From contig CAMPDV010001223.1 of the NCBI GenBank assembly GCA_946699065.1, positions 1 through 64,000 on the forward strand: DNA of 64,000 nt, in the 5' to 3' direction. The notes beneath the pieces are model-generated. The model searched no databases. It saw nothing but the letters and a program-made list of their open reading frames with translations, and was not told the DNA's origin. Every line of letters starts with the position of its first letter. Position 1 is the stretch's first letter. A program made the translations under genes and the position numbers. Shown here piece after piece: positions 1 to 64,000 of the stretch. Source of the DNA: Loxodes magnus. Its lineage: Eukaryota > Ciliophora > Karyorelictea > Loxodida > Loxodidae.

Positions 1-118
1 GTTTAACTTAGACTATTAATCGAGGGATGAAGAAAAGGATAGCTTCATCGGAGGTTGATGAAGTTAAGCAAAATTAAGTACTCATAATCGGACTATGTTT
101 TACACTGCTTTGGTTGAT

Positions 119-953
119 TCACGAGACCTGAAAAGAAATATCTTTGGCAGCTGAAACGAATTAAACTCTTAATTTTTTTAACTTAGAAAGACTTAAATCT
201 GTAGATGTATTTTACTACAAAATTTGAAACTCCTTTATTACCCTCATACTCCAGCCTTCGGACAGATTTGTCAGACATAAGAATAAGAAGGAATTCAAAT
301 TTTTAATTTAAAAAATGGAGAAGAGAAAAATTATTAATCCGTGGTGAATCTAATAATGGTGGAACCACGTCAAAAAATGTATTTTTTAACACAAAATAGA
401 TAATTTGAATAAAATTATAACAAATAAAAAATTTTTATATGAAAATAAAATGTTTAATTAAAGATTTCTCTCTTCCTTGAGTAATTTCAGGTTCAAAGAT
501 TCCTAGTCTAAAAGCAGTTAAACTCTGGTTTTTGCTTCGTTTATTGATACAGTTTCTTCTTCCGAAAATCTTCCATCCCTTATTAGATAAAAGATAGTAA
601 GGCCTTTTCAAATCTTCTATTGAGTTTTATTGCTTTATTTGGAGTTTCATCAGAGATGTCATGTGTTACTACAGATGTAGCATTTTTTCTAGAAAGTTTA
701 TGCTCTTGCTTAAAATTTTTAATTTCCTTTGTGATTGCTTAACTGATATTTTAGGTTTGCTATTATTCCATTTTATTTAATTCTGTTTCTTTTTTATTAA
801 CTCTTGTTTCAAGTCATGGTTTATCTGTTCTTGCTTCATAAAATCTTCTTCTCTTTGTGTTGTATTATTCAAAAATCTTGGTCTAACTTTTTTATCTATG
901 CTTCGTACTACTCCCTTGGAATTAGTACAAGGAGTATATAAATTTAAGTACAT
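119..953 (-). pseudogene. Coiled-coil arm gene, left copy (frameshifted)
   Basis: Read on the minus strand from ATG 953 this begins MYLNLYTPCTNSKG and continues into a Lys/Gln/Glu-rich helical stretch with RPRFLNN, KQELIKKKQN and SVKQSQRKLKIL motifs. The same protein is encoded by the right arm at 46004. The frame of the N-terminal part (open 777-989) does not match the frame of the downstream part near 526, so at least one frameshift separates them. I do not recognise the family. It is divergent from the MORN/F-box/LRR gene, 141 bp away, so the two may share a promoter region. The lower end is uncertain; a TGA in a conserved tail lies at 119-121. Confidence 0.4.
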
Positions 954-1094
954 AGATTGAATAAAGTAATAAATAAAATAATAGAGCAATAATTATAAAA
1001 TATAATCATTTAATTAAAAATCTAATAAAATAGTAATTTCTATTTAATACTGACAAATAAGCATTATTTCTTAATATTTTTGCTAAATTATAAA

Positions 1095-4000
1095 ATGAAA
1101 GAGAAAAGTCTTAAAAGCGGATCACAAGCCCTAAGAAAAAACACTTTATGGAGTTTAAAGATGAAAGAATAAAAGGAAATATGTTGGATAGATTTATTAA
1201 GGATAGAGATAAGGAAGAGGAACAATGTTTTACGAGAATTAAGATATTTACGAAGGAGAATGGATCAAAAGGTTAAAAAATGGATTAGGAATTTTATATC
1301 TGAAAAAGTGGAAATAAATATGAAGGATAATTTGAAAATAACAAAGTATAAGGAAGTGGAGAATTAAAATTAATAAATGGATCACAATACGAAGGAGAAT
1401 GAAAAAACAACATAATGAATGGGTAAGGAATTTATAAATGATAAAATGGAGATAAATATGAAGGCCATTTTGTAAATGGATTAAGATAAGGGAGAGGAAT
1501 AATGGTTCTTAATAATGGAAATGTTTATGAAGGAGAGTGATTGAAAGATAAAAAACATGGATAAGGAATTTATAAATGTAAAGATGGAAGTAAATATGAA
1601 GGATAATTTGTAAATGGATTAAAAGAAGGAAAAGGAATAATGGTTTTGACTAGTGGAAATGCTTATGAAGGAGAGTGATTGAAAGATAAGTGGCATGGAT
1701 AAGGAATTTATAAATGAAAAAATGGAAGTAAATATGAAGGATAATTTGTAAATGGATTAAGTGAAGGGAAAGGAATAATGGTTCTTAATAATGGAAATGT
1801 TTATGAAGGAGAGTGATTAAAAGATAAAAAGCATGGATAAGGAATTTATAAATGAAAAAATGGAAGTAAATATGAAGGATAATTTGTAAATGGATTAAAA
1901 GAAGGGAAAGGAATAATGGTTAATGAAGGATGGAGATGTTTATGAAGGAGAGTGATTGAAAGATGAAATGCATGGCCAAGGAATTTATAAATGAAAAAAT
2001 GGAAGTAAATATGAAGGATAATTTGTAAATGGATTAAGAGAAGGGAAAGGAATAATGGTTTTGACTAGTGGAAATGCTTATGAAGGAGAGTGATTAAAAG
2101 ATAAAAAGCATGGATAAGGAATTTATAAATGAAAAAATGGAGATAAATATGAAGGATAATTTGTAAATGGATTAAAAGAAGGGAAAGGAATAATGGTTTA
2201 TGAAGATGGAGATGTTTATGAAGGAGAATGATCAAAAGATGAAATGCATGGCCAAGGAATTTATAAATGAAAAAATGGAAGTAAATATGAAGGATAACTT
2301 GTAAATGGATTAAAAGAAGGGAAAGGAATAATGGTTTATGAAGATGGAGATGTTTATGAAGGAGAGTGATTAAAAGATAAGGGGCATGGATAAGGAATTT
2401 ATAAATGTAAAGAGTGGAAGTAAATATGAAGGCCATTTTGTAAATGGATTAAGAGAAGGAAAAGGAATAATGGTTTATACTAGTGGAAATCTTACGAAGG
2501 AGAGTGATTGAAAGATAAAAAGCATGGATAAGGAATTTATAAATGAAAATATGGAGATAAATATGAAGGCCATTTTGTAAATGGATTAAGAGAAGGAAAA
2601 GGAATAATGGTTTATGCTAATGAAAATTCTTACGAAGGAGAGTGATTGAAAGATAAAAAGCATGGATAAGGAATTTATAAATGAAAAAATAGAGATAAAT
2701 ATGAAGGCCATTTTTTAAATGGATTAAGAGAAGGAAAAGGAATAATGGTTTATGTTAGTGGAGATGTTTATGAAGGAGAGTGATTAAAAGAAAAGGGGCA
2801 TGGATAAGGAATTTATAAATGTAAAGATGGAAGTAAATATGAAGGCCATTTTGTAAATGGATTAAAAGAAGGAAAAGGAATAATGGTTTATACTAGTGGA
2901 AATGATTATGAAGGAGAGTGATTGAAAGATAAAATGCATGGATAAGGAATTTATAAATGAAAGATGGAGATAAATATGAAGGCCATTTTGTAAATGGATT
3001 AAAAGAAGGAAAAGGAATAATGGTTTATACTAGTGGAAATGATTATGAAGGAGAGTGATTGAAAGATAAAATGCATGGATAAGGAATTTATAAATGAAAA
3101 GATGGAGATAAATATGAAGGATAATTTGTAAATGGATTAAAAGAAGGAAAAGGCATAATGGTTTATACTAGTGGAAATGTTTATGAAGGAGATTGAATTT
3201 ATGATAAAATGCGATGGATAAGGAATTTATAAATGAAAATATGGTGATAAATATTAAGGTTTATTATTTGAATCATAATTTTTAGGAAAATAATCGTAGT
3301 TATTATTCAATGATGGTTGAATTTTTGACTCTTTTTATTTTAAAGTTAATAAAAATATGAATTAATCTCTCATCTAATAAAAATGCTTTACTTAGTCATT
3401 AAATTTAAATTATCAAGATTAATTAAGAAAAAAATAAAAGTAAAGCTATCACTTACTAATCTAGTAAACTTAAAATATCCTTAATAAAATATTTGAATTC
3501 CTCAAGATTAAAGATATTTGCACTTTACAAAAAACTAATAAGTTTTTCTATTCCTATAATTATAAATTCTAGCTTTTAAAGATTAAAACATTTTATGGAA
3601 CTGAAGATTATATGAAAAAGCAAGATAAATTGAACTATAAAATAAATATAGAATGTAGATGTAATAAAGCTAGTAGTTGATTTAAATAATTTATCTCAAC
3701 ATTTGATAGATTAATTATAAAATAAGTTATATTATAGTCTACTATTTAGATAATGAACTAACTTAAAATAAGGAAAAAAAGATTAATTACTAGACTTTTC
3801 TCTTTTAAGTTATTCAAAATCATTTATTATTTCTAATTTTTTACCTTACTAAAACTTAAAAAATTTAGTACTTAAAGGTTGCTATAAGGATGATGATTTA
3901 TATTTTATTTAATATTTAATAAATCTTGAGAAATTAGAAATCATTTATTAAGAATCTAGTTAAACTACTTAAGAATTGAAAGGAAAGTTTTTAACTTAAT

Positions 4001-5004
4001 ATTGTATGAACTTAAATAAAGTTAGAATTCTAATAATAAAAATCCCTTAACTATTATAAGAGTATATAAAAGACTATTTAGAATAAAAAGGATAATTCAT
4101 CGAAGAACTAAGTATTAACAATCCTTAAGATACTTCTTAATTTACTTATTTTATGTCCTAACTTAAATGCTATTGATTTTTATGATTCTGCTTAGGAAAT
4201 TTTTGATTAAGTTAGAAATAGAAAAATATAAAGCTTATTGGTAAAAGGTAATTTTGAGAGAGAAGCATTTGAATAATATTTTTGGAGTTAAGTATAGTAA
4301 ACTATATAAAGTTAGTATTGAAGATAGTTAGAGTTTTAGTGATTAAAATATGTAGATTCTTTTATAAAATGCAAATAACATCTAGTCACTTAAACTAAAA
4401 AGCTTAGTACAACTTACTAATTCTTCTCTTTAGTAAATAGGTAATTATGGATAGAACTATGAATAAATAAGTTTAATTGACTTAAATCAAATAACACACT
4501 AAACTTTAAGTTTTATTTTCTAACAATGTAAAAGATTAAAGTAAATAGAACTTGCTTAACTAACTTAAATAAACAGCTAGCTTTTCTAAGTAATAAACTA
4601 AAATAATCTATATTTACAAACATTAAAACTGAACTAACTAACAATAAAAGGAAATTAAAATTGGATAGATTAAATAGTATAAATAAGATAGCTAAATAGC
4701 TTATAACTTAATAGTTTAAATCTAAATGATTAAGATATTGCTAAAATATTATAACTAGCAACTAGATTATAAACATTAGATTTAAGTGGAAATTAAATTA
4801 CAAATAACACATTTCCAATAAACGATGAAAATGAATAGCCTTATCCTATTTATAAAAACTTAAGAATTTTAAAGGTAACTTTTTAGAACTTTGAGTTTAA
4901 AAACTAGTTTATTAGATTAAAAGAGAAGTTTAGAAAAATAAAAAATATTTAATGGATATGAGGAATTTGAAGAAATCAATCTAGACGTCGATTTGGATTT
5001 GTGA
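1095..5004 (+). pseudogene. MORN-F-box-LRR protein gene, left copy (decayed)
   Basis: This is the paralogue of the intact gene at 42896-45862. It starts at the same ATG (MKEKSLKSGS) and ends at the equivalent TGA (5002-5004), but the span is not a multiple of three. Single-base changes break the frame inside MORN units, for example GAAGGATGG for GAAGATGG near 1927, GAGTGG for GATGG near 2411, and a lost G near 2480. It has about 13 MORN units against six typical ones on the right. Nearly every MORN tryptophan is TGA here too; one is TGG (near 1260). The F-box and LRR parts follow from about 3290. It is probably a non-functional twin, although sequencing errors in a repeat could mimic some indels. 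Confidence 0.75.
1230..3290 (+). repeat. Tandem MORN array, 138-bp unit
   Basis: A 46-codon unit carrying two MORN motifs (YEGEW...GQGIYKW and KYEGQF...GKGIMV) repeats about 13 times with a period near 138 bp, after a few diverged units. Tryptophan codons in YEGEW and YKW are TGA in almost every unit. Confidence 0.9.
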
Positions 5005-12285: not shown

Positions 12286-12289
12286 TTAA

Positions 12290-13585: not shown

Positions 13586-13589
13586 GAAG

Positions 13590-16497: not shown

Positions 16498-16520
16498 AAG
16501 AGGAGTATTGTAGAAAAAAT

Positions 16521-18959: not shown

Positions 18960-18960
<1 letters not shown>
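17535..18960 (+). repeat. Cathepsin upstream block, matches 24276-25680
   Basis: TGCTAGCATTAGACAAATTA (near 17540 and 24276) opens a highly similar 1.4-kb stretch that leads directly into cathepsin genes A and B. The duplication unit therefore includes the 5' neighbour and the protease. Confidence 0.95.
17690..18520 (-). pseudogene. Hypothetical protein upstream of cathepsin A
   Basis: The minus-strand frame has ML NIRLFKKKCLRYKSLEIIS-type sequence, then TGGNLEVFDNLPNQDLIIYL, NEDIFSLRKWISSTKSRR and EKWQRQEVKEIEDYNKYWTRYIQ-like segments. The unit B copy (24440-25240) preserves this frame and both TGA-encoded W codons of the last segment, with mostly conservative changes, so the strand and frame are real. 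One-base indels differ between copies near 18320 and 18160, so at least one copy is broken. It is divergent from the cathepsin gene. Function unknown. Confidence 0.45.
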
Positions 18961-19991
<1,031 letters not shown>

Positions 19992-26702: not shown

Positions 26703-26704
26703 AA

Positions 26705-29812: not shown

Positions 29813-32075
29813 TCATTCTAAGTCTTCAACTAAAATGACTAAACTAAAAATAAAATTCTTCTATATCGTTTAACTTAAAAGAGTCATATTAAATAATTGT
29901 TTAGATTTTAGGCTTAACTTAAGGATATATTCTTCTTTTAATTTATAACAACCTTGTAAATTTAATATTTTTAAATTATTCCAAATTTAATATTAAAATC
30001 CTTATTTATCTTATATAGGAAACGCTTCTTAGTTTATTTTGCTATTAAAATTTAAGTCTAAGTATTCAAGCTAGTTACAGTTTTTAATTATTTAAATAGC
30101 ATCTTTGTTACCTAAATTGCAAAAATGTAACTATAATTTTTTGATAGTAGGTATATTTACTATTTCAGTAATTCAATTTTTCTGGGTTATTTCACAAGCA
30201 AAAAGTACAATACTTAGTATTTTTTAGGAATAAGTACTTAGTATCTTAAAAGTATCTTTTTATAATCCTTTCATATTACTAAATTAAATTTGCTTTAGTT
30301 TCTAGCAATTTTATAATATAAAACTAATAGTTTATGGCTTAAGCTAATTAAGTTGCTCTAATTATAAATATTGAATGTTCTTATTATAAATTGCTATTTA
30401 ATGAAATGTCTAATCTTAAATATTATCTTAGCTAATAAGTATCAATTCTTTTAGATTGTCAGAGCTTATAAATATTAATTATGAAATCTCTTAAATTATT
30501 ACATTTCTAAATGCTAACAGTCTTAAGCTAAAGCAACTTTTTATTTTAACACCTTAAATCTTATTCTACTGCTTAAATTCACTAAGCTAAGCTGGATTAC
30601 TTTAGATGTTAATCATCTATAAAAGTGATATCAAAAAATGATATTGATACTAAGAAGGGAGAGTTATATAGCACTAACTTGATAAATTGATTACTTATTT
30701 ATGCAATTCCAGATAAATATAATTACTATAACTTAAATTATTCCTAAGACTAGAAGTTAATATTATTCATTAGCTGCTATTCTTTTTCTTATATTTATAC
30801 ATTTTCTCATTCATTCTCTTCAAAGTCAACATTTTCTAAGCTGAGTTTTTTCAAATTTTTAGATCTACAAACTAAAAGAATAAACCAATAAGAATTATAA
30901 AATTATAGATTATTAATGTTAATAGTTTATAAACTGCTTTGTCTATAAAAGAATTCTTAAGTTTCTTACACTGAAGTATCTTTACATTCTATATCTAAAT
31001 TTTATAGTTAAGATCCCCCAAATTTATTTAATCATTTGTTTAATATTTCAACTTTTATAAGTGTAATAGTAATTAAATTAGGACAAAATTCTATTATACT
31101 TTAAATATCAAAATTAATGCTAATGTAAATATATTCTAGATTTTATCCTTTTACTTATAGAAAACTCTTTATCTTTTCATATTCTAGATAAATACTATTT
31201 AATTCTAAGCTTTTCAAATTCAGGTTATAACAGTAGTCTAGTAAGTATTATCCTGTTATTTAAGTTGCTCAATAAAAATTAATTGATTCTAATTTAGGTA
31301 ATTATTGTAAAAACCATAAAGAATAATCATTTAAATCTTCATCGATTCTTAGGCATCTTAGTTAGCTAAAATGAGAAATAATAAAGCATATGTTATTATT
31401 TAAGCTTATCTCTTTTAAATGCAAATCTTTAATTTGTAGTTATTAATTATTTCTTAAACATTGCAGTCTTTTTTAGATACTAACTAGTAATCTATCATAA
31501 ATCTAATTTTTCAAACTTTCACGAAATTTATAAGTGTTTATTGTTAAAGACTCTACATCTGATTTAGATATTTACTTTAATGTTCATTTAACATAGCTTT
31601 TGGCAATTTGCTTATCTTCTTAATAATTACCAATTTCTAGAGATCTATAAAAGTACCTAAATTAGTTGAAATATCTATTTATTTATTGTAGCAGAGCAAT
31701 GTCTTTATTTTCCAAGAACTAAATAATGTAATTTATAATATTTTGATTCTTCTAAACTTTTTATATTTAACTCTCTTTCACTTATTAGTTTTATACTTAA
31801 AGCTCTATTTTTTTTACCCCAACAGTATCTTCTTAGTTTTCTAGTGTATTTAGTTACTGATTGAAATCTTAGTTTATATCTTGCTTCAATTATGTTCTTT
31901 GAAGTTCTACTTTAAAAATATTTTGAATCTTTGCTTCTTCGTTTCGTTCTAATCCTTTATCCTTTTAAGGTTGAGATATAAACGTAGCCTAGTTTTACTG
32001 ATGCTTAGAAGGATATATCTAGGTTGATTTATTCTAGCTGGATGGCTTTTTGTTATTAACACAACAAGCTCCCAT
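29813..32075 (-). CDS. F-box/LRR protein, copy 3 (best preserved, MGACC start)
   Basis: ATG at 32075 gives MGACCVNNKKPSS, a classic N-myristoylation plus palmitoylation signal predicting membrane anchoring. A Gln/Lys-rich linker leads to an F-box (IINYIIQFLENKDIALLQQI, about residues 115-135), then LRRs (LHLKEISLNNN, LPKLESINFY, CNLGNKDAIQII, NLKILNLQGC). W is TGA in FYWATQ, NKWLNK, NEWENV, AQWIQ, KLWQSK and KNWI (30173-30175), and TGG in SLWFL, SYWFI and QIWNNL (29981-29983). One extra base near 30195-30205 shifts the frame between the KYCTF and CNLGN parts; otherwise open. Predicted SCF substrate adaptor at a membrane. The 3' end (TGA 29813-29815) is uncertain because that TGA could be W. 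Confidence 0.75.
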
Positions 32076-32379: not shown

Positions 32380-33240
32380 CCATCTAACTACCTTTTACTG
32401 TCTCTTCGCTATCCTTACTTAAGAGACCAATCTATTATTTTAGATCATATGAAATGTGGCCTTAGAATAGAGCTACAGAGTAACAGACTTTAGACTAAAA
32501 AATATAGTTAAGATTTAGAATAAAAATCAGCTTTATTTAGACCTTTTAGAAGAATAGACTGAAGGGGATAAATGCTTCCTTTAAAGGTATAAAAGAATTA
32601 TGACAAACTCAATCTCTGAGGACAGGAAGAAAGTTAAGCCTTTGCTTTATCAACTTAAAGTTTGCTACTTAGTCTTAAAGAATCAATCCTAGTGTTGAGA
32701 CTAAACTATCTAAAATTTTATCGTTAATGCTAAGATTCCAGATTATATAAAGCAAGTGTCTTAGGGGATCAAAAGCAGAGAAGAAGTTCAATTATATATA
32801 AAAAATAAACTTAAAATTAAGCTGAAAGCAAATTTATAAAGTTATAATCATTCTTATCAAAAATAATGCTATATAATCATCATATATTAAAGCGATAATT
32901 CAATAATATTGTACCTATGGAAATTAAAACATTTTAATCAGAAAAAAAAGACAAGTTACTAGAAAGAATGTTTAATCTAAGTAAAAAACCTAATAATAAA
33001 AAATATAAAATGGTAAATTTATTATTTGTTTGCACGAAATATAGATAAAGAAAACCTGTTTTTGAAATATTAGAGATTTAGCTTCGAAAGAATGATTCGC
33101 GATACAGAATGCAAAAGTATTATATATGCTATGTCTAAAACTGAAGAAATTGAAGAGATATAGTAGTTATATAAGTGGCTTATACCTAAGTTGACTTACC
33201 ACTGTATTTATTATTATTTAATTGAAAAATATCAATTTAA
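32380..33240 (+). CDS. Tail of a membrane-protein-family gene, convergent with cathepsin C
   Basis: Frame pieces read LDHMKCGLRIELQSNRL, LPLKVQKNYDKLNLW (W is TGA) and LSTQSLLLSLKESILVLRLN. Near 33080-33220 they read SFERMIRDTECKSIIYAMS, EEIEEIQQLYKWLIPKL and YHCIYYYLIEK. The last block is the family C-terminus also found behind cathepsins A and B. The start is unknown and the first 450 bp are not matched elsewhere in the window. Function unknown. Confidence 0.4.
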
Positions 33241-33269
33241 TCTACATGTTAATTAGCTTCATCAGAAAA

Positions 33270-34291
33270 TTGGATATGATACAGTTGAGGCAACTCGACA
33301 TTGTCCAACTGAGGTGCTTGAATCAGTTCTTTTCCATCTATTATATCCTTTCTCTCTCCATTATGTATTCCACGAAATATTGATTCTCCAGTAGTCTTGT
33401 CCAGTTTAAGTCCTATAACCAGCAAGATTTATACCATGGTTAAGTGAAGTTGAGCATTATCCATTACAAATGTCTACAGAATAGCTAGATCTATTTGAAA
33501 TATCAACTGTAATTGAGACAACATTTCCATTTATTGCATTTTTCAAAACAGCTTAATTAGTGGGAACATCTACAAAGTTTGCTGCAACGGTTACACTCTG
33601 GTTGAGATCTATTTGCAGCTTTCATCTACATCAGTGTATAGATTATCTGATTCAATCTCTGCATCGTAAGATCGCCAATATTGGAAAGCAGAGTTTATCC
33701 ATTCATCATTTCATCATTAGTTGCCAAATTGACCAGAATTGCTAATTAATTATTATTCAGAGAAGGATATCATTTGTCCATTCTTTTGGAAGTAAGCTCC
33801 TTCCAAACTTCCTACAGCACTGAAAACACAGCAGTTTTCGCTTTGGTCTTAATCTTTGATAGATGTTACAGCTCCCTTCTATTACCAATCAAAAGAATCA
33901 GCAACATTTTATACATATTCATATACGTAATTCTTTACCCTGTTTTAGTTATCCTTGTATCCTAAATAAGTCTTTCTGAATTCTTCTTTAGTCAAATCAG
34001 TGAAGCGCTTAACTGCGAACTTTTTAACCAAATACATCTAATTCTAGACTTTAATCCAGTAATAGCAATCATGGAAAATATTGTAGCTTTGCTAAATTTC
34101 TTAGAAAGAACTATAAGTCTTGTTAATTTCTTAGCGAAGGCTTGGAATTCAATTCATGATTCTTTTTCACTTTCATGAAACTTAAATTTTACCATCAAAG
34201 CTCTTCCATTGTTTGGTGCTGCAAACATCACTAAAGCGACTATTCTGTTTACGACAGCCAATAATTTAATAATTAGCTTGCTAGAAGCCAT
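33270..34291 (-). pseudogene. Cathepsin L-like protease, copy C (inverted, decayed)
   Basis: Minus-strand start MASSKLIIKLL at 34291. The position equal to W46 of copy A (TGG) is TGA at 34154-34156 (ESWIEFQAF), a direct TGG/TGA exchange. A deleted base in the KKFNKTY segment and others shift the frame. The active-site Cys survives (SENCCVF), but the catalytic Asn codon AAT of KNSW is ATT (NISW). The catalytic triad is therefore incomplete. The end SYPIF with TGA is retained near 33272. Confidence 0.9.
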
Positions 34292-34429
34292 TTAATATAT
34301 TAAATTAGGTATTTTTAATTTAATTGGCTAATTATAAAGTAAAATTAAGTTCTAAAGTTTAATAATCTAAGCATTAAATACACTTATTTATGTCTAATAC
34401 TTTACTAAACCCTTTGTGGATTACATAGA

Positions 34430-42895: not shown

Positions 42896-45862
42896 TCAAA
42901 AATCCAAATCAACTTCTATGTCGCTTTCTTCAAATTCCTCATCTTCAAATTCCTCATCTTCAAATTCCTCATATCCATTAAATATTTTTATTTTTTTAAA
43001 CTTCTCTTTTAATCTAATAAACTAGTCTTCAAATTCAAAGTCCAAAAAAGTTACCTTTAAAATTCTTAAGTTTTTATAAATAGGATAAGGCTATTCATTT
43101 TCATCATTTATTGGAAATGTGTTATTTGTAATTTAATTTCCACTTAAATCTAATGTTTATAATCTAGTTGCTAGTTATAATATTTTAGCAATATCTTAAT
43201 CATTTAGATTTAAACTATTAAGTTATAAGCTATTTAGCTATCTTATTTATACTATTTAATCTATCCAATTTTAATTTCCTTTTATTGTTAGTTAGTTCAG
43301 TTTTAATGTTTGTAAATATAGATTATTTTAGTTTATTACTTAGAAAAGCTAGCTGTTTATTTAAGTTAGTTAAGCAAGTTCTATTTACTTTAATCTTTTA
43401 CATTGTTAGAAAATAAAACTTAAAGTTTAGTGTGTTATTTGATTTAAGTCAATTAAACTTATTTATTCATAGTTCTATCCATAATTACCTATTTACTAAA
43501 GAGAAGAATTAGTAAGTTGTACTAAGCTTTTTAGTTTAAGTGACTAGATGTTATTTGCATTTTATAAAAGAATCTACATATTTTAATCACTAAAACTCTA
43601 ACTATCTTCAATACTAACTTTATATAGTTTACTATACTTAACTCCAAAATATTATTCAAATGCTTCTCTCTCAAAATTACCTTTTACCAATAAGCTTTAT
43701 ATTTTTCCATTTCTAACTTAATCGAAAATTTCCTAAGAAGAATCATAAAAATCAATAGCATTTAAGTTAGGACATAAATAAGTAAATTAAGAAGTATCTT
43801 AAGGATTGTTAATACTTAGTTCTTCGATGAATTATCCTTTTTATTCTAAATAGTCTTTTATATACTCTTATTATAGTTAAGGGATTTTTATTATTAGAAT
43901 TCTAACTTTATTTAAGTTCATACAATATTAAGTTAAAAACTTTCCTTTCAATTCTTAAGTAGTTTAACTAGATTCTTAATAAATGATTTCTAATTTCTCA
44001 AGATTTATTAAATATTAAATAAAATATAAATCATCATCCTTATAGCAACCTTTAAGTACTAAATTTTTTAAGTTTTAGTAAGGTAAAAAATTAGAAATAA
44101 TAAATGATTTTGAATAACTTAAAAGAGAAAAGTCTAGTAATTAATCTTTTTTTCCTTATTTTAAGTTAGTTCATTATCTAAATAGTAGACTATAATATAA
44201 CTTATTTTATAATTAATCTATCAAATGTTGAGATAAATTATTTAAATCAACTACTAGCTTTATTACATCTACATTCTATATTTATTTTATAGTTCAATTT
44301 ATCTTGCTTTTTATATAATCTTCAGTTCCATAAAATGTTTTAATCTTTAAAAGCTAGAATTTATAATTATAGGAATAGAAAAACTTATTAGTTTTTTGTA
44401 AAGTGCAAATATCTTTAATCTTGAGGAATTCAAATATTTTATTAAGAATATTTTAAGTTTACTAGATTAGTAAGTGATAGCTTTACTTTTATTTTTTTCT
44501 TAATTAATCTTGATAATTTAAATTTAATGACTAAGTAAAGCATTTTTATTAGATGAGAGATTAATTCATATTTTTATTAACTTTAAAATAAAAAGAGTCA
44601 AAAATTCAACCATCATTGAATAATAACTACGATTATTTTCCTAAAAATTATGATTCAAATAATAAACCTTCATATTTATCACCATATTTTCATTTATAAA
44701 TTCCTTATCCATGCATTTTATCTTTCAATCACTCTCCTTCATAAACATTTCCATTAGCATAAACATTTATTCCTTTTCCTTCTCGTAATTCATTGATTCA
44801 TTATCCTTCATATTTATCACCATTTTTTCATTTATAAATTCCTTATCCATGCATTTCATCTTTTAATCACTCTCCTTCATAAGAATTTTCATTAGCATAA
44901 ACCATTATGCCTTTTCCTTCTCTTAATCCATTTACAAAATGGCCTTCATATTTATCACCCTTTTTTCATTTGTAAATTCCTTATCCATGCATTTCATCTT
45001 TTAATCACTCTCCTTCATAAGAATTTTCATTAGCATAAACCATTATGCTTTTTCCTTCTCTTAATCCATTTACAAAATGGCCTTCATATTTATCACCCTT
45101 TTTTCATTTGTAAATTCCTTATCCATGCATTTCATCTTTTAATCACTCTCCTTCATAAGAATTTTCATTAGCATAAACCATTATACCTTTTCCTTCTCTT
45201 AATCCATTTACAAAATGTCCTTCATATTTATCACCCTTTTTTCATTTATAAATTCCTAATCCACTTTTTTTATCTTTTAATCACTCTCCTTCATAAACAT
45301 CTCCACTAACATAAACCATTATGCCTTTTCCTTCTTTTAATCCATTTATAAATTATCCTTCATATTTTTATCCTTTTTTTCATTTGTAAATTCCCTATCC
45401 ATGCATTTTATCTTTTAATCACTCTCCTTCATAAACATCTCCATTTTCATAAACCATTATTCCTTTCCCTTATCTTAATCCATTTACAAAATGGCCTTCA
45501 TATTTACTTCCATCTTTTCATTTATAAATTCCTTACCCATTCATTATGTTGTTTTTTCATTCTCCTTCGTATTGTGACCCATTTATTAATTTTAATTCTC
45601 CACTTCCTTATACTTTGTTATTTTCAAATTATCCTTCATATTTATTTCCACTTTTTCAGATATAAATTCCTAATCCTTTTTTTTTACCTTTTGATCATTC
45701 TCCTTCGTAAATATCTTAATTCTCGTAAAACATTGTTCCTCTTCCTTATCTCTATCCTTAATAAATCTATCCAACATATTTCCTTTTATTCTTTCATCTT
45801 TAAACTCCATAAAGTGTTTTTTCTTAGTTTTGTGATCCGCTTTTAAGACTTTTCTCTTTCAT
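42896..45862 (-). CDS. MORN-repeat / F-box / LRR protein, intact
   Basis: ATG 45862 to TGA 42896-42898 is exactly 989 codons in one frame if internal TGA is read as Trp. Order: MKEKSLKSGSQNQEKTLYGV start; MORN motifs YEGEW, GIYIWKSGNKYEG, GQGIYKW to about residue 400; F-box IFEFLKIKDICTLQKTNKFF about 465; LRRs (LKNLVLKGCY, LQTLKLNQLTIKGNQ, LQTLDLSGNQ); acidic C-terminus with repeated EEFED. About 20 Trp codons are TGA, all at MORN-consensus W or W-compatible sites, and one is TGG (NWID, 43265-43267). MORN repeats bind membranes or scaffold cytoskeleton; F-box/LRR parts recruit SCF substrates. The combination suggests a membrane-scaffolded ubiquitin-ligase adaptor (inference). Confidence 0.85.
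42929..42973 (-). repeat. Three 15-bp tandem repeats (EEFED)
   Basis: TTCAAATTCCTCATC is repeated three times, adding in-frame acidic pentapeptides. The left arm has one copy (near 4957). Confidence 0.95.
44640..45720 (-). repeat. Tandem MORN array of the right arm
   Basis: Six typical 138-bp units (CTCCTTCATAA landmarks near 44733, 44871, 45009, 45147, 45287 and 45425) plus diverged first units. Three units (44871-45147) are almost identical to each other, indicating recent homogenisation. Confidence 0.9.
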
Positions 45863-46003
45863 TTTATAATTTAGCAAAAATATTAAGAAATAATGCTTAT
45901 TTGGCAGTATTAAATAGAAATTACTATTTTATTAGATTTTTAATTAAATGATTATGATTTATAATTATTGCTCTATTATTTTATTTATTACTTTATTCAA
46001 TCT

Positions 46004-46510
46004 ATGTACTTAAATTTATATACTCCTTGTACTAATTCCAAGGAGTATTACAAAGCATAGATAAAAAAGTTAGACCAAGATTTTTGAATAATGCAACACA
46101 AAGAGAAGAAGATTTTATGAAGCAAGAAAAGATATACCAAGACTTGAAACAAGAGTTAATAAAAAAGAAACAGAATTAAATAAAATGGAATAAAAACAAA
46201 CCTAAAATATCAGTTAAGCAATCACAAAGGAAATTAAAAATTTTAAGCAAGAGCATAAACTTTCTAGAAAAAATGCTACATCTGTAGTAACACATGACAT
46301 CTCTGATGAAACTCCAAATAAAGCAATAAAACTCAATAGAAGATTTGAAAAGGCCTTACTATCTTTTATCTAATAAGGGATGGAAGATTTCGGAAGAAGA
46401 AACTGTATCAATAAACGAAGCAAAAACCAGAGTTTAACTGCTTTTAGACTAGGAAATCTGGGGACCTTATCATTACTCAAGGAAGAGAGAAATCTTTAAT
46501 TAAACATTTT
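46004..46510 (+). pseudogene. Coiled-coil arm gene, right copy
   Basis: The plus-strand frame after about 46078 is free of TGA for some 140 codons: RPRFLNNATQREEDFMKQEK, KQELIKKKQNQIKWNKNKP, SVKQSQRKLKILSKSINFL, EEETVSINEAKTRVQLLL. One base is missing in AAGGAGTATTACAAAG (left AAGGGAGTAGTACGAAG), which disconnects the MYLNLYTPC start from the rest. It is divergent from the MORN gene, 141 bp away. Family unknown. Confidence 0.45.
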
Positions 46511-46676
46511 ATTTTCCTATTAAAACTTTTGATTTGATATAATTTTATTCAAATTATCTATATTATTTTAAAAATACATTTTTGATGTGGTTCCACCATT
46601 GATAGATTCACCACGGATTAATAATTTTTCTCTTTTCTATTTTTTAAATCAAAAATTTGAATTCCTTCTTATTCTT

Positions 46677-46835
46677 ATGTCTGACAAATCTGTCCGAAGG
46701 CTGGAGTATGAGGGTAATAAAGGAATTCCAAATTTTGTAGTAAAATACATCAAAGATTTAAGTTTTTTTAAGTTAAAAAAATTAAGAGTTTAATTCGTTT
46801 CAGCTGCCAAAGATATTTCTTTTCAGGTCTCGTGA
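46677..46835 (+). CDS. Small arm ORF, 52 aa
   Basis: ATG 46677 to TGA 46833-46835: MSDKSVRRLEYEGNKGIPNF, then FFKLKKLRVQFVSAAKDISF. The left arm has the same start but a 1-bp indel near 205 changes its tail. It could equally be the 3' part of the upstream coiled-coil gene. Coding-like sequence continues past the TGA (MSTQLCLTSSTSDEAILF) to the arm end. Confidence 0.3.
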
Positions 46836-46949
46836 ATCAGCCAAAGCAGTGTAAAACATAGTCCGATTATGAGTACTTAACTTTGCTTAACTTCATCAAC
46901 CTCCGATGAAGCTATCCTTTTCTTCATCCCTCGATTAATGGCCTAAGTT

Positions 46950-48745: not shown

Positions 48746-49597
48746 TCAAGCCTCCTAATAAAATAAAAGTTTTTCAATCTTGGTGGTTTTTCTTCTTGAT
48801 TCTCTCTTGTCCCAATTCTCATCTTCTCTATTCTTGAAGTTCCTGATTGTTTTTATTTTTTCTTGTATATTTGTCCGTCTTTATTGCAATACAGTTTCTT
48901 TCATTTCCTTTTCTTCTTTAATTCAGTATTCTTTCTTGAATTTTTAGAATTTCTTACATCTTCTGTTCAGATGATTCTGGCTTTTACAAAAGTAACATTT
49001 CTTCTTTATCTTTCTAGCCGGTTCCATCTTGATTACCTGCTCTTCTTCTATTTCCATTTTGTCGATCTTAGGAATTTCTTGTCTCTAACTTAATATTATT
49101 TCCTTATTCTAATCTTGTATCGTTTTTATTGAGGCGCTCATCTGTTTCAACTCTTCCTACTGATACTTCCAGAGAGTGTCAAGCTCCCTTTCCCAATTTG
49201 CCATTCGAAGCTCTCTTGAGTCCTGTTGCTCAATTAAATCCATTAGCTTCGTATTTTCCTTCTTGAGCTTCTTAACCTCTTCCTATTGGTTTATGACTAC
49301 CTTAATTAATTGTTCTATGCTCAACTACCCGGATGGATAGACTTTCGACACCTCCTAATGTAGAGCCGACTTAGGCTGCTTCCTTGGCTTTTCCTGCGTT
49401 AACAGAGTGAGTTCATGGCTTGTCCTAGCAATTGGATATTCTTCCCTGGGTAAGGAAGATTAATATTACTTCACCGGAGTTTAGTCTTATTAAGAAGAAG
49501 ATTAGGGTTAAGTGTAAGACGACTGATTAAGAGTGGCTTCTGGTTTCCTCTCCTATTTCTTGGAGGTGGTGTAGAAACCTTTCTTTAAGCCTTCCAT
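48746..49597 (-). CDS. Gag-like zinc-knuckle protein, intact (283 aa)
   Basis: ATG 49597 to TGA 48746-48748 is 283 codons plus stop. Order: basic N-terminus (MEGLKKGFYTTSKKQERK); Gln/Ser/Pro-rich stretch; coiled coil about residues 107-165 (QQEEVKKLKKENTKLMDLIE, EELKQMSASIKTI); CX2CX4HX4C knuckle at Cys201, Cys204, His209, Cys214; basic tail. One internal TGA (residue 225, 48923-48925, KEYWIKEE) reads as Trp, while the terminal TGA stops; other Trp are TGG. Architecture is that of Gag/ORF1 nucleic-acid-binding proteins of retroelements; no reverse transcriptase is adjacent. It is less AT-rich than its surroundings. Confidence 0.75.
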
Positions 49598-49639
49598 TTT
49601 TTTCCTTTGATTTTTGAAAATTATTTAAACATTTTAAGT

Positions 49640-52285
49640 TTTATAAAAGTAAATTATAAAGATTAAAAAGTACAAATATAGGTAACCTATTTAAATATTA
49701 GCTTTAGAATAAACATTAAAAACAAAAGTTTATTTTGATGTCTATTTATATTAATTACAAATTTATTAAAAGGAACTTGATATTATTACGGAGAAATTGA
49801 GCAGTCTACAATATTATATCTTTAATGAAGATTGTTTAATTTCTTTTATTTTTTAAGAGCATAAAGATGAGAAAATATTAAAAAAGTGCTTAGAGATTTA
49901 GTAATAATTATAAATTAAAAAGGAAAGTATTAAATGCTAGCTATTAATAAATAATTAAAAAAAGGTATATTTAAATTTTCTATTATCAGTTTTAATTTAA
50001 CTTTAATTAAGAAAATATTGTTTTCGTATCATTTTAAAATATTTAGCATTGATTAAAATAGAATCTCTACTATATAATTTTTAATTTATCAATTTTCAAA
50101 TTTAAGTTAATTAAAATTTAATATGTTTTTACCATATTATATGTATGTAATAGAATATGTTTTGCAACTTTCATCTCAATAATCTTAACTTATTTTACTT
50201 TAATCATTTTCTTCTTCACCTGATCTCTAACCATTTGCTCCAATAACTCTTCTGATTGCTAGTTATTTTATAAATTATAGATTTTCTACGAAGAAACTTT
50301 GAATGATATATTTAATTCTTAAATAAATGTATGAAAATAGTCTTAGAGAAGGGAAGTTATGATTTATATAATTTGGATTATAGGTTAAAAGTATAAATAA
50401 TGAATAATTCCCGCTTTCTTGAACGTATAGGTTTAATTAAGAAATATATTAATAAGTGTCTCATTGCTGGTAAATAAAAATATCATAGTGTTATATTTAA
50501 TAGTGTCTTTATTTAAAATAATACTAAAAATTGTACTAAAAGTATATAAATTGTAAATTGATACTATTTCTCAATTTATTGTTTTTTTAATATAATGTAA
50601 GTATAAATTTTGTATTTCTGTTAATCAATGTTATTGTTTAAATGTTCCAAATAAGTAAGCATTGCATTCTTACCTCTTATTGCATCTTTATAAAATGTCT
50701 ATTCTATTTTATTTAAAAATGTATTTAAATATATTTGCTGTTAGCATCTTAAAGATGTATTTGAAAATGCTAAGTTAGTGATGTTAAATTCTTAAAATAT
50801 TTAAGGTTAACTTTATTAGTTTTGTTAAAAAGAAATGGTACATTTTAGTTAGGATAAGCATAAGGTTTAGTGTAAAGTTGATGTAGTCTTTGAAATAAAT
50901 AATTGAAATGTAGCATAAAGAATAAGCAATTAATGTAAATATTAGATTACTTCTTATACATAATTACATTATTTTAATAATTGATAACTTATAGCCAATT
51001 AGCTAAAATTTAAATTTGAAGTGTTAAAAAGTTAGATAGGAATAAGATATTGTAACTAATATTTATTTTGAATAAATTTAAATTTTAAGCTTTTAGTTAT
51101 ATATAGTTTTGTTCTTAAATAAATTACTTAAATAGAAAATACTTTAATTTCTATTAAGTTTTTAAATTTATACTTTTTATATGATTGGCAGCATTAAAAT
51201 AAATATGTTATAGAAAATATACATAACTCTATGCTTTTTATTTTTGAAACTATAAAGTGATAAAAGTAAGTTATTATACTAAAGTAATTTTAATAAATAG
51301 TCTTTAATTTTATACATTTTACTATTATACATTTAAATTAATTTTTCACAGAATAAATTACGAGTTTAAAAACTAAGACTAATATTATAATCTTATTAAA
51401 ACTATTAATTGCTTATTATTTTAAAAAGTAAAAAGATATTTAAAATAAGTTATTAAAAAGTAATTAGTTTAAATATTTTTATTTTACACCAACTTATAAG
51501 TTTTATATCAACAAATATATCAACAATATTTATTAATGCTTCTTACCCTTATTTAAAATTACTATTTCAATTCTTAAAAATTAACTTACCAAATTTAACT
51601 ATAAACTATTAGAATCAATCATTAATCAAATATTTCAACATAATAACATATACCAAATATACTTATATATTAGATTTATAATCAAAAACTACATTTAAAT
51701 CTTCATTTTCAATTCATATTAGATAATCATATTTTAAAACCATTTAGTTAGAACAGCTATATTAACAAAAAATCAATTAAGAATATATTTAGTTAAGTAT
51801 ATTTTATAATTTATTCATTATTTAAATGATACTGCAACAAAATTAATTTTTCATAGATTCATGTTTTTTATTTTTAACATATAAACATATTAAAACATTA
51901 AATCATTATTTAAAAGAATTGCTTTACGTTAAAGTCAACTATTTAATAAGTATTATACAAAATTCTATTATTATTGTATTACAAAAATTACATCAAATCA
52001 ACTTTTTACTTATTTCACCTTTACTAAAATTTGTCTTATTACTTAATCTTCTCTTTTATTTTTTTATATCTATAATACTTAAAGATATGCAACCAAATTA
52101 CTAAAACTTAAAAGTTATATCACTTTTACTTTTAATCTTTTATATTTTTAAATATAATAATAAAATCTGTTTTTAAGATATCAAATAGAAATTTTATTTA
52201 ATTAAATAGTTTCGTTATTTAAATTTAAAAAGAACATATTAAAGAATATTAAAACATTTATAATAAAAAATAATTTTAAGTTTTT
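49640..52285. other. Long AT-rich gene-free stretch
   Basis: About 2.6 kb of A/T runs. Only short hydrophobic frames (for example 51919-52104 plus) are present; none has a motif, start context or paralogue. No repeat of other parts of the window noticed. Confidence 0.65.
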
Positions 52286-54177: not shown

Positions 54178-56540
54178 ATGAAGAGAATAGAAATAATTAG
54201 TTTAGTAATGCTTCTAATATCAAGTATTACCATCATAACTATACTTACAATTACATCATTACAATGTAAATACCTTATTTATACTACACCTCTACATTAT
54301 AACATATCACTTGTAGTCTCATCAAACACCACCAACTATTATCTCTTATATCCACCTCTTTGTCAGCACCATTTCAAATTACTTTCATTTACGTCTCTAC
54401 CTTAAGAAGATAAACACCAACAAACAAAGGAAGAAGCTTAGCTTGAAAAGGGCCTAAATATAGAGCATTAAATTGAGAAATTGAAACTAGATTAAAATGT
54501 AGGCTACTAATAAATAAAAGAATAAGAAAAGTTAAAAGAAATGAAAATTAGGACTAAGTATATAGTTAATAAGTAAGCAATAGCTAAATTTAGATATTTT
54601 GGAAAAATACAAATATTCTCAATTACATTATTCAGTTCTTAGAAAATAAAGATATTCCTATTTTATAATTAGTCAGTAGATACTTCAATTTGTATAGATA
54701 CAAATTTAACTACCTAGAGATTCAAAAGTATTAAGAAAATTATATTATTACTAAAAATATAATCTAATTAACTTTCAAGTAAATTTTATAATCAGATACT
54801 AAGTAACTGGCAATTACAGCTTTCAAATTTTCTGATAATTGAAAAATTAAGTTTATGGTAGGATGCTTAAAAGTATCTAATAGAGACTGTAATATTTAAG
54901 AAGCAGTTAATGGCTGCAAATTTAAGAAAGTCATTTATAAAATATGAGCTTGAATAATAACATTCTATTTATCATCTCTTAATGCTATTTATCATCTCTT
55001 AATGCTATTAGCTAAGGTAATTAAGAACATACGAGTTATAGAAGATTAATCTTTATATTTTATGCAATAACTACCTAAACTAGAATCCAATTACTTAAAA
55101 GATGCTGAATAATTAACAGAATATATTTTATAAGATTTTTGTAATAATTTGAACTTGAAAATTTTAAAATTGTAATGTACAAAATTAGAAAAGGTAAAGG
55201 AATTTTTATAAGTAAAAGGACAAAAATTGTAAGGAATTTAAATATTTTATAAAGATAATTTATATATTATAGTTATTTGCAATTTAAAACACTATAACTC
55301 TTACTTATTTACTCCTTTATTTTTTAACTCTTCTAATTTGAAAAATTTCATTTATTTAATTTTATTTCTAAAAAGGATGAATGAGAAAATGCATAGATAT
55401 AGGAATAAGAATAGCAATTAGTGAATATAATTAGCATCTTTAATTTAAGTTATAAAGGTTGTTAATAATAGGAGCTGTATAAATAAGTAATAAATTTGTC
55501 ACTTTAATATTACTCAATTCTCCATTCTTAAAATAATTATCATTATAGGGAGTCAGCTTTATAGATGATTAAAATTTAAAGAAATCTAATTATACCTTTG
55601 ATTTATATTTCTAAACTTTAGAGTAGGATATGAAGTCTGAAAATAAAAAGTTAGGTTACCTTACGAATTTAAAAGTTTGAGATTGTGATAAATTTAGAGA
55701 TGATATTTTATAATTTATCCTAATAAACTCTCCTAATTTAAAATAATTTAAACTAAGATTCAGTTTAAAGTACTACTTTTCATTTACTAGGAATTTATAA
55801 TTAGAACATTTAATATTTTATATTAGAGTAACTTAATCTACTATAACTTTAAGCTATTAATTTCATATTCTAAAATTGCTAAAAAGTAAAAGAAATTTAT
55901 TTTAGTTATATAGAAGGATTTTCAAAAGAGACTTTCGAAATTCTAAATACTCAATATTAGAAAATATAAAGCATTAAGTGAATAGTTGTGTCCTCAGTCA
56001 AAAAAATTGAATTAATGGAATAGTAAAAATAACTACTTTATAAACATTATCGTTAAATGATTGCAATTTAGGTAACTAAGATGTTATTTAGATAATAAAA
56101 AGATGTAAAAATCTATAATAATTGATCTTAGGAAAGAATGATAGTATCATATAAGAAGCATTTCGTATAAATGATGAATAGGGATTCTAATATTAAATTT
56201 GAAATAATTTAAGAACTTTAGATTTATAAAATTGCTTTAAGATTAATAGCAATTAAATAATGAATTTAAGTAAAATGTTTACAAATATTCATATTAAATA
56301 TAGATAATTTAATAAATACAACAATCTAGAACAACTATATTTTGATCTGAGGGATTGTCACATGAAGAATTATTAAAGAGCAAACAATTTTAAAACTTAA
56401 TAAATAAAATATCTTATTTAAAATTTGATTATATAGCTAAATAAAGTAAAACTATTACTAAATTTTAGTTTTAAGGTTTAGCAATTTTTTCTTAGATAAT
56501 TTTTAATTTTATTTTTATTGTAAATGCATTTAATTTCATT
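54178..56540 (+). pseudogene. F-box/LRR protein, copy 2 (broken by 20-bp duplication)
   Basis: The frame from ATG 54178 (MKRIEIISLVMLLISS) runs about 260 codons to the duplication at 54967-55006. Removing one 20-bp copy restores the frame into VIKNIRVIEDQSLYFMQQLP and further LRRs. Later parts include LKVWDCDKFRDDIL, NWINGIVKI (W TGA 56008-56010), LSLNDCNLGNQDVIQII and QIWNNLRTLDL (W TGA 56200-56202). Spacing of the last two W codons is 192 bp, the same as in copy 3. Early W codons are TGG. The first 110 bp are homologous to non-coding 5' flank of copy 3, so the true start may differ. Another frame change near 55550 is likely. Confidence 0.7.
54967..55006 (+). repeat. 20-bp perfect tandem duplication
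   Basis: ATTTATCATCTCTTAATGCT occurs twice in a row inside F-box/LRR copy 2. Its length is not a multiple of three, so it shifts the frame. Confidence 0.97.
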
Positions 56541-57384
56541 AAATGAAAAATCCAAATTCAACTTTTAGAAATCTTTTACATTCTCAAGATAAAGTTTCTA
56601 AAATAATCTACTCAGAAGTATTAAAAAATTAAGACAGATTATTTAGTTTTAGTTTATAAAATAGTGATAAAAAAATAGCAAAAATAAGTATTTATGCCTA
56701 CTATTTATATTATTAATAAAGATATAAAAGAAAACATATTTGCTAATATTAAAAATACTAGAATAAAATATAATAAACAATCATTTATCTATATTCTTAA
56801 AATTTAATCATATATATTTATTTTTAATATCATATTTCCAATTAAAATAAATGTTGCTTTTGATAAAAATAAAAGCTGGATAGAGCTTTTAGAAAGTAAT
56901 AAAAACTAACAAAATTATTAAAAATAATTTTAACATTATTTTGATTTTAGAAAAATCATTATAATAGTGCATTATTTGTTATTAGTTTTTTAGATTAAAA
57001 TATTTTCAATAAAGCTAGTAAAGTTTTTAAGCTTCTTAATTTTTAAATTAGTTATTTTTATAATTATTAATAAATAAATTTTAATGTTATGCTAATTCTT
57101 AATTATAATACTCTTTTATGTAATATTTAATTTTACTTTTATTTTAATTTATTTAATATATTTAGATAATATGCTTTTAGTTTTAGGAGCCTAATTATAT
57201 TTAATTAGCATATTAAATAAATCAATATTCTAATTTATTATATTTTAAAAAATATTTGTCTTTACTTGGAAATTTTTATTACTAAAGATTTAATCCATTC
57301 TTAGCTTCTTCAGTATATAATATTAATTATTATTTTAATTTACTAAAAAACCATTCATTTAATATAATAAATAAGATTAGAGAG
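56541..57384. other. AT-rich stretch, no gene recognised
   Basis: A/T-rich with TTTTAATTTA-type low complexity; no conserved frame seen. Confidence 0.6.
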
Positions 57385-57627
57385 TTTGTAACACCTTCAA
57401 TGGTGTGCAGATCTTTAATCAAGATTTTTAAACTCAAAAAAAGTTATTTTCTGAAGTATTCCTCAGTGTTAACATCCTTTGTTGAGTTTCGTCTTCTATA
57501 GGGCGTGATTGGAGTGCTCCCTAAGAGATTTTAGTATCAGGCATCTTTCGTCAAAAAAGTTACAAGATGCCTCTTTAGTCTTTGTCTTCTTTCTTGGCTC
57601 CTACCAAGATTCTTGTTTGGTTCTTCG
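57385..57627 (-). CDS. Small conserved ORF, copy 2
   Basis: A sharply GC-richer patch. Minus strand reads NQTRILVGAKKEDKDQRGIL, KMPDTKISQGALQ, EDETQQRMLTLRNTSENNFF and LKICTPLKV, matching the order of residues in 20261-20440. Two TGA codons at W. It directly abuts the 57628 duplication junction, so it may mark the edge of an inserted element. No domain recognised. Confidence 0.4.
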
Positions 57628-58767
57628 CAAATCCACTTTTAGAAAAATAAATAAAAAATACTAAAAAGTAAAATAAAAGCTTAGAGCAAATTAATAAAAG
57701 CTTTCAAAATTAAATTAGTAAATCACAACTAAATGTAGAAACTTTGGAATAATAGTAATTATTCAAATTCTTTAATACTTATAAAATCAACACATTGCTA
57801 ATATATAATAAGTTAATACTAGATATACTTTTAACTACCTACTCATTTTATATTATTAAGAACATTTAATACTAAAAACTTAATTCTATTAACTTTAAAC
57901 TTAATTTAACATTCACTATTTATTAATAAATAAATACCTATTTTCAGTTCAACTGCTAAATTAGATTTCTGAATTATTACTACAAAGTATGTAGATCAAA
58001 ATTTAAGATTTAAGCAATATAAAGTAACTTTAATTTAAGAACTTCATATAATTCAAAAATATAGAAGTAGCAATATTTATAAATTATTCCTAGTTGCTAT
58101 TAACTAACAAGGTTAAGAATCATTAATTGGGAGTAAGTTTATTAATAACTATACTTTTGTAATATTTACCATTACTAGAATCTATTAATATGCAAGCAGA
58201 ATAATTAACAGGCTAATTTTACTAGATTTCTGTTTTAATTTTAATTTAAATATTCTTAAAATTGAGAGTGATAATTTATAAAAGAGAAAGTGAAAGAAAT
58301 TTGATAAATAAAAGGTTTAATCATATAAGAAATAAAAATAAATAAAAATGATAAGTATCATAATATAATATAATTTTGCCCATATCTTAATAAATTTTAT
58401 TTGAAGTTTAGTTATAATATCTTACTAAAATTTAAATTAAATTAAGCATTTTTAATTAAAGAGATATAATTGGATTTTTAAATGTATCTAGATAAGTAAT
58501 TAAAGAATTGTTTTAATGCTAGTATAATAGTTTATAATCTATTTATATTTAAAGTATCAAGCTTTATAACTTTTATTTTTAGTCTTTCTAATTTTTTCTG
58601 CTCCAAATTTAAAGAATTAAAGCTTAGATTATGCTTTGTATATCCAAAATGAATAGAATAAGAATTAAGAATAACTATAACTGAATAGTAGTAACTTTTA
58701 AATATAGTAGTATTTTAAGTTAGAAAGTATTTAATGATTCATATCTTAATATACTAATCTTCAGTTT
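57628..58767 (+). repeat. Near-identical copy of 7266-8403
   Basis: Contains an internal piece of F-box/LRR copy 1 without its start or its C-terminal half; see 7266-8403. Confidence 0.95.
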
Positions 58768-59104
58768 GATTTTATATATGTTTATCTATATTATATATAG
58801 TATATAAATCTCACTTAATGATATCTATAGCAACTATAATCTTTGAAAGCTTGTATATATATGAATATAGAATTGGTCTATAAATAAATTAGCATGGCAT
58901 CACCGTTAATTAGGTTTAGCATAATAAACTATACATATAATTAAAGTGTTCTTATTATCTGCATTGTCTTGGTATAGCAAACAAATAAGAGATAAGCTTC
59001 TTCAAATGGAGAATTTTTATTCTATATTTATTCTCTAATCTAGTTGTAATCACATCATTCTTCTAAAGTAAAGCCCTAAAAAGAATTAGAAGTTTAAAAA
59101 ATTA

Positions 59105-59250
59105 AGTGGCTCATCAAACAAACCTATGTATTGCTAGCAAGAACTCGTGGGCAAGTTGGGTATGTCTCTTTTGAGTTTGTCACCCTTATTCTTGGTGTTA
59201 TCTAGTTCAAAATTACTCTCAACTCAGATTATTGGAATTCTCCCAAATGT
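59105..59250 (-). CDS. Fragment of an unknown conserved protein, copy 2
   Basis: Reads LDNTKNKGDKLKRDIPNLP, then QQYIGLFDEPLNFLNF, in a single frame. Copy 1 (12290-12435) has a 1-bp insertion. GC-richer than flanks. Family unknown. Confidence 0.4.
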
Positions 59251-60389
59251 GATAAAAATAAGTATTTTTAATTGATAAATAGCTTTAATAATCTTAATAC
59301 ATACATGATAGATAATTGAATATAATGGTATAAAATGTCTATAAGATATAAATGTGAAATATAAATACTAATAAGTTATGAAATAATTTGATTAGGAATA
59401 TTAGTTATATACAGTTAGGATTATCTGTTATATTATTTAAAGCATTCTTAAATAATTCAAATACTTTATATCAATTAATAAGCTTCTATAGTACAACTAA
59501 TCAATTAACATTTTTCAGTTATAAAAATGCAATGGCAGTACAAAAGAACTTAAGAAGCTAAGAATAGTAATTTTAAAAAATTTTAGCTATACATTATATG
59601 ATGAGAAAATAAGTTATATTATGCAAATATTAATATTATAATTGGAGGTAATAAATAAGTGAAAAATACCCTTGACTTTGACAAAAAATCACAAAGAAAG
59701 AAGAAATTAAAGTTGAATGTTTAAATTGTTTGGCATTTTAAATATTTCTTATATTATATATTTTAAATTTGGCAATTTTTCAATCCTTAACTATATACTA
59801 AAGTATAAAATTAAGTTATTTCTCTGTAATATGCTATGAAATAAATATTTATAATATAATGTAATGTAGTTTTATTATCTGTAATGTGAGGAAACGTGTA
59901 TCCACATCTTATCTCATCAAACCTTCGTTCCTTAAATATCATTTAAGCTCTAAAGACAATCTTGATTTTGATTGCCTTACAACATTTTTTATCTCTTATA
60001 TGACTTCATATTAATCTGAAATTAACTGATAAATCTTTTATATATATGAATCTTGAATAAATTGATTGATATATTGTTAGCGTGGTAGTTATATTAATTT
60101 CATAATTTTATGATATTGAGTTAGATATTTAGGAAGCATTTTGCTATTTTTTATACTTAAATTTATCTTAAAAATTTAGTTGATATAAGTATAATGGATA
60201 CCCGCTCTCTAAAGTTTAATAAGATTTTACAGACAAAAGCAATATTAAACTAGGCTTCAGAACTAACGTTACTTTTAATCTTTCATCATCACTAATAGTT
60301 TTTAAGTTATTTTTAGGCTGTTATGCTATCATAATTCAGCTCTTATAAGATTAGGGGATGAAGTAAGCTAAAGTATGCTGAATATTAGA

Positions 60390-63280: not shown

Positions 63281-63306
63281 AGGGAAGAGAGTATTATAGA
63301 AGAAAT

Positions 63307-64000
63307 ATGGAAAAATCTAATTCTAGTAACATAAAGGAACAAGCTTAAGCTTCAGGCTTTTTGGTTTCTTTATTAACTAAAAGGAATTTTAAATAAAACA
63401 CAGAGTAAAGAGTAATAACTTGAAATGTGGGAATAAATGTAAGATACAAAAGAACTTAAAAGTTTAATAAAAGAGCTTTCTAAGTAAATTCAAATGATTA
63501 AATATAAGCTAGGAAAATAGAAAAAATATACGAAGTTAAAAGGCCTAAATCTACATTTCCAATAATATAGTAAACGGAACTTGAAGGACTGAGTATTCAA
63601 AAGTAAATTAAAGAAATTTAATTGCAAAATAAGAAATATAAAATAGGCAGAAACCTATTTCAAGTAATTTTAAAATGATAAGATAAAGCAGGACAAGATT
63701 AATAATTAGCATGCTTTCTTCTTTAATCTTTTAATAATATTAAGCTTTTAACTGTCATCTTTAAGAACCAGAGCTGGTATTAAATATTAGTGAAATATCT
63801 CATTGGTCCTGTTTTCAATTCATCAGTAGAAACGAACTACAAGAAAGATTCTAAAATAGACATTAAAATTGATAAGGTACAGAAGTATTTCAAATAAGAA
63901 AGCATAGCTTAGAGAAAGCCAAGTTAATTATTATGCTTAATCACCGAAAAATATTTAAAACAGATTCATAGTTGGAATTCAAGAAGATTAACTTCCATTT
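63307..64000 (+). pseudogene. Kinesin-like repeat-family gene, partial copy at window end
   Basis: ATG 63307 gives the same MEKSNSSNIKEQAQA start as 16521. Near 63840 the frame HQQKRTTRKILK leads into TLKLIRYRSIS without the extra base that breaks copy 1. It is cut by the window end. Confidence 0.4.

Follow-up and report, generated by a model that had tools for sequence, protein, structure and literature searches.

UGA codons at tryptophan positions of a MORN gene in karyorelict nuclear DNA

Introduction

A genetic code in which UAA and UAG specify glutamine, UGA specifies tryptophan, and termination depends upon context is reported for Condylostoma magnum and Parduczia sp. in PMC4967479, where the C. 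magnum code is backed by mass spectrometry and ribosome profiling. Karyorelicts including Loxodes are placed under NCBI table 27 in PMC11441545, with UGA as the only stop codon, which is translated as Trp when the distance to the downstream poly-A tail is sufficient; the code paper itself (Seah 2022) is reference 44 of that article. The same source describes coding UGA and UAA as depleted over the approximately 20 codons before the stop, the 3′-UTRs as short and AT-rich, and the introns of Loxodes magnus as having a mean length of 19.3 bp and a mode of 17 bp, with lengths divisible by three (3n) being depleted.

The DNA analyzed here, referred to as the window, is a stretch of 64,000 nucleotides (contig CAMPDV010001223.1, positions 1 to 64,000). 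We are highly confident that it represents karyorelict nuclear DNA, almost certainly macronuclear DNA of Loxodes magnus (Karyorelictea, Loxodida), and that it is read by NCBI code 27, in which UAA and UAG are Gln, and UGA is Trp within genes and a stop near their 3′-end. It shares with table 27 (Parduczia sp., Loxodes) UAR as sense codons, UGA as Trp internally, and UGA as the stop at the end of a gene. No difference from this table was found; only the UGA dose of one MORN gene stands out. The karyorelict code with UGA as Trp, in print since 2016 and described for L. magnus, is published and therefore already known, and nothing that was tested differs from table 27. Taken alone, the finding in the MORN gene arrives at this code once more from the sequence itself, and is valuable as a check of the reading rather than as news.

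The MORN gene

The MORN/F-box-like/LRR gene (copy 2) occupies positions 42896..45862 and is read on the minus strand from 45862 to 42896. No intron was noticed in its 989 codons. The internal codons include 21 TGA, a single TGG (codon 866), 68 TAA and 18 TAG (86 together), nine CAA, and no CAG. The original prediction that TGA stands at the Trp positions of this gene is thereby confirmed, with 21 internal TGA codons plus the terminal one. Relative to the 988 sense codons this is approximately 2.1%, compared with the 0.120% given in PMC4967479 for Parduczia sp., a figure that refers to another species and is transcriptome-wide.

Under code 27 a Pfam profile search finds 16 MORN stretches in the protein (E 1.5e-92). 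Tandem-repeat detection together with the MORN profile matches places an array of 46-residue (138-bp) units at 44667..45781 (−). A codon scan of its units reveals TGA at the Trp of YEGEW in 8/8 and at the Trp of GIYKW in 8/8, so that both conserved columns are TGA throughout, as had been claimed, including the first unit, where the second motif reads GIYIW. One additional TGA lies inside the array (codon 355), and four are found outside it, at codons 23, 419, 523, and 564. Downstream of the array are a weak F-box-like segment (residues 471-497; 44372..44452, −), which scores 16.8 bits against a Pfam cut-off of 20.5, and a leucine-rich repeat (LRR) solenoid of repeated strand-helix units (residues 744-960; 42983..43633, −), which was recognized from a structure model and fold matches.

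The frame closes as predicted, with 2967 bp from ATG to TGA. This says little about whether the gene is intact, because TAA, TAG, and TGA are all readable and every frame is consequently open. Its intactness rests upon the presence of the MORN, F-box-like, and LRR parts in one frame.

The terminal TGA (42896..42898, −) is presumably the stop of the gene, which presumably is expressed. The last coding TGA lies 425 codons upstream of it, the last TAA 79, and the last TAG 42; coding UGA and UAA are thus absent from the 78 codons before the presumed stop, which in one gene is not proof of depletion. In the 66 codons that follow there is no further in-frame TGA, and the GC content of the first 60 nt after the terminal TGA is 10%, versus 23% within the gene. 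As a single example, this 3′-end agrees with the UGA and UAA depletion and the short AT-rich 3′-UTRs that have been published. Following the literature, the choice between stop and sense at UGA would be set by nearness to the mRNA 3′-end or poly-A tail, given short 3′-UTRs.

UGA as a stop codon

The contrast within the window is provided by the gene for a cathepsin-L-like protease (I29 propeptide plus Peptidase_C1) at 18960..19991 (+). The Peptidase_C1 match reaches the last of the 220 profile positions at residue 342; a single residue (343) remains, and the codon after it is TGA. All of its Trp codons are TGG (11/11), and its frame contains nine UAR codons. UGA therefore also terminates, as this one gene with a domain-fixed end shows, and the code is for that reason ambiguous and not simply one in which UGA is Trp. 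The code proposed originally, with UGA as Trp, is supported across loci when TGA is masked (see below), but has to be amended in this respect. Its other element, UAR as sense, is borne out by two in-frame domain proteins, the product of the MORN gene and the cathepsin; UAA and UAG are sense in both, and from the published code they would be read as Gln. Two further cathepsin-L-like regions, at about 25568-26939 (+) and about 32993-34407 (−), are 80-82% identical at the DNA level to 18960-19991 (+). Their frames look broken in the list of open reading frames, and the copy at 18960-19991 is complete.

UGA as tryptophan across MORN loci

According to the original prediction, the pattern in the array could not be the spread of one mutation by tandem duplication. 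The array itself lends this little weight: its units copy each other, so unit counts overstate independence, and the burden is therefore carried by a test across loci, in which TGA as Trp is indeed seen at separate places. A profile search of 705,730,643 bases in 7843 contigs, which favors units with TGG, supplied eight further MORN loci from other parts of the genome (L001-L008). Their 28 pairwise alignments were made with TGA masked as X (coding strand, codons 301-760, composition-corrected). Among 6094 aligned codon pairs the masked TGA has 230 partners, of which 81 are TGG and 72 are TGA (TGA-TGA pairs being counted twice); the 77 that are neither include Phe (15), Tyr (13), Leu (10), Ile (10), Ser (8), and others. 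The 435 partners of TGG in the same alignments are distributed in a similar shape, with TGG 276, TGA 81, Phe 31, and Tyr 23. The associated p value of 3.5e-72 assumes independent pairs, whereas the 28 locus pairs are not independent.

Examination of the two Trp columns in 19 sequences gave TGG 125, TGA 58, and other codons 257 in the first (n=440), and TGA 104, TGG 25, and other codons 279 in the second (n=408). The codons that do not specify Trp are mainly those of Phe and Tyr, the usual alternates in MORN units. UGA thus occupies Trp positions in the MORN gene and in other MORN loci, where it exchanges with UGG. In ten other MORN-array regions (L009-L018) the second column has TGA in 84/84 Trp codons, 245 of its 329 matches not being Trp; the first has TGG 97 and TGA 18 among 115 Trp codons, 218 of its 333 matches not being Trp. 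Trp codons fixed by position in the unit are a trace of array homogenization.

Internal UGA would be decoded by a tRNA that inserts Trp. In a tRNA search 63 of 42,786 candidates were scored; the 30 of these 63 loci that were fetched contained only genes for tRNA-Lys(TTT) (32) and tRNA-Ala(TGC) (14). Neither Rfam at its curated cut-offs nor ARAGORN gave a match within the 64-kb window. The tRNA-Lys(TTT) genes recur every ~0.53 kb (contig C103) or ~1.75 kb (C78, C158), and in the fetched loci tRNA-Ala(TGC) is often found beside them (L033-L040, L046-L048; contigs C78, C103, and C158).

Alternative readings

The MORN gene has a second copy in the window, inverted and lying at 5..4973 (+), with a larger array and ~92-93% identity to the copy-2 region in two long blocks. 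The inverted duplication includes flanking sequence (5-4973, +, and 42957-46949, −), its arms being 38 kb apart. The MORN motifs of copy 1 are spread over all three frames. Compared with the C-terminus of copy 2, that of copy 1 has 19 substitutions as well as four inserted single bases and a gap of 30 bp, not counting gaps at the ends; the pN/pS is 0.53 from 13 and 6 changes, numbers too small to demonstrate selection. Either copy 1 has recently become a pseudogene or its sequence contains indel errors of long-read assembly. It retains an F-box-like segment matching that of copy 2, with a score of 18.6 bits, so that neither copy attains the curated Pfam cut-off for an F-box.

Membership in a repeated family with such a broken copy would suit a reading in which UGA is a plain stop and the MORN gene a dead repeat, its TGG codons converted to TGA by decay or by a repeat-directed G-to-A process, and the cathepsin, with TGG alone for Trp and its stop on TGA, would fit this also. 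We nevertheless regard it as very improbable. TGA is found at the Trp columns of other MORN loci, swapping there with TGG, and the remaining codons one step from TGA are scarce: there are none among the 440 codons of the first column (19 sequences), and among the 408 of the second there are TGT 7, TAA 2, TTA 2, and CGA 1, versus 104 TGA. In the MORN gene itself the TGA:TGG ratio of 21:1 does not differ from that of its other A/G-ending codon pairs (311:57, p 0.22). Out-of-frame TGG survives, as in the CATGGA of the unit consensus, which also counts against a G-to-A process. On the Trp-column counts, the partners of masked TGA, and the A/G-pair ratio, plain decay of TGG to TGA was rejected.

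Euplotes reads UGA as cysteine, which counts in favor of internal UGA specifying a residue other than Trp, such as cysteine or selenocysteine. In C. magnum and Parduczia UGA is said to double as a selenocysteine codon (PMC4967479). The chance that this applies here is close to negligible: the partners of masked TGA are led by TGG and include no Cys (0/230), and 21 UGA in one protein would be implausible for selenocysteine. Cysteine and selenocysteine were accordingly rejected on the partner counts. A further alternative is a code of the Condylostoma type (table 28), which has UAR as Gln, UGA as Trp, and context-dependent termination in common with the karyorelict type and differs in that UAA and UAG may also stop near the 3′-end. 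UAR stops elsewhere are conceivable, but the only gene of the window with a domain-fixed end, the cathepsin, ends on TGA and showed no UAR stop. Moreover, removal of GT-AG introns of 16, 17, 18, 24, and 27 bp restores MORN homology in loci L004, L006, L007, and L008, and in being short these introns fit L. magnus, for which PMC11441545 states UGA to be the only stop. Three of the five lengths (18, 24, and 27), however, are 3n, and the introns support the name by their shortness only. We give table 28 a very slight chance, and retain the karyorelict code, table 27, for the window.

Dose of UGA and its possible cost

Under the karyorelict code, the near-exclusive TGA of the MORN gene results from its strong preference for A-ending codons, from copying among the array units, and probably from selection against UGA being weak. 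Outside the array the Trp codons of this gene are few (four TGA and one TGG). The cathepsin has far fewer TGA than the bias predicts, its TGA:TGG ratio being 0:11 versus 48:27 for its other A/G-ending pairs (p 4.9e-5). The same is true for the MORN cores of L001-L008 (22:48 versus 252:43, p 1.9e-18), a comparison that is biased because these loci scored best against a profile in which TGA earns no credit, and in which motifs defined the limits of the cores.

These values raise the possibility, which we put forward tentatively and hold to be somewhat doubtful, that UGA as Trp is costly, such that ordinary genes keep it well below the level expected from their A-ending bias, while some amplified MORN/F-box/LRR repeat genes reach mutational equilibrium. 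The amplified arrays of L009-L018 count against it: since the first Trp column has remained mostly TGG in them (97/115), amplification alone does not bring TGA. If the idea is true, messages rich in UGA would report naturally, and in proportion to dose, on whether UGA is taken as Trp or as stop. One window contains a gene saturated with UGA as Trp near a gene that has none, and the cost of an ambiguous stop/sense codon could therefore be measured within one genome.

The encoded protein

Residues 401-988 were modeled, giving a mean pLDDT of 50.1 for the whole model with 366 of the 588 residues below 50. Across the LRR solenoid (residues 744-960) confidence is fair to good, with 10-residue means ranging from 58 to 94. 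Since the model is poor outside the LRR, this part alone is relied upon. In the fold search it matched a chain of a DQC ubiquitin ligase best (E 1.6e-8), and SKP1-FBXL17 complexes came next (E 1.6e-7), with TM-scores for the two best matches that are low (0.29 by query and 0.44-0.45 by target). Other LRR proteins, for example NLRC4, match as well.

An LRR solenoid behind a weak F-box-like segment is a feature shared with the F-box/LRR proteins of SCF ubiquitin ligases such as FBXL17 and SKP2, from which the MORN gene product differs in its added N-terminal MORN array and in an F-box that is below cut-off. On the basis of this weak likeness, the F-box-like/LRR C-terminus joined to a MORN array may plausibly represent the arm by which an SCF-type ubiquitin ligase binds its substrates. 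Among the publications listed by a literature search, none matched the combination of MORN, F-box, and leucine-rich repeat in a ciliate by title or abstract.

Other repeats in the window

Weaker F-box/LRR relatives are located at about 7009-9117, 29888-31877, 54444-56346, and 56942-58678. The open frame at 48923-50032 (−) has a C-terminal CCHC-like knuckle and resembles a retrotransposon gag/ORF1 protein, its Pfam matches being weak only (E 0.29 and 0.31). Pairs of MORN regions on opposite strands and a few kb apart are also present in contigs C150, C288, C782, and C1859. Finally, the window contains direct repeats, one pair of which (7266-8410 and 57628-58775) is 99.1% identical, and another (11949-17209 and 58770-63996) 88.7% identical.
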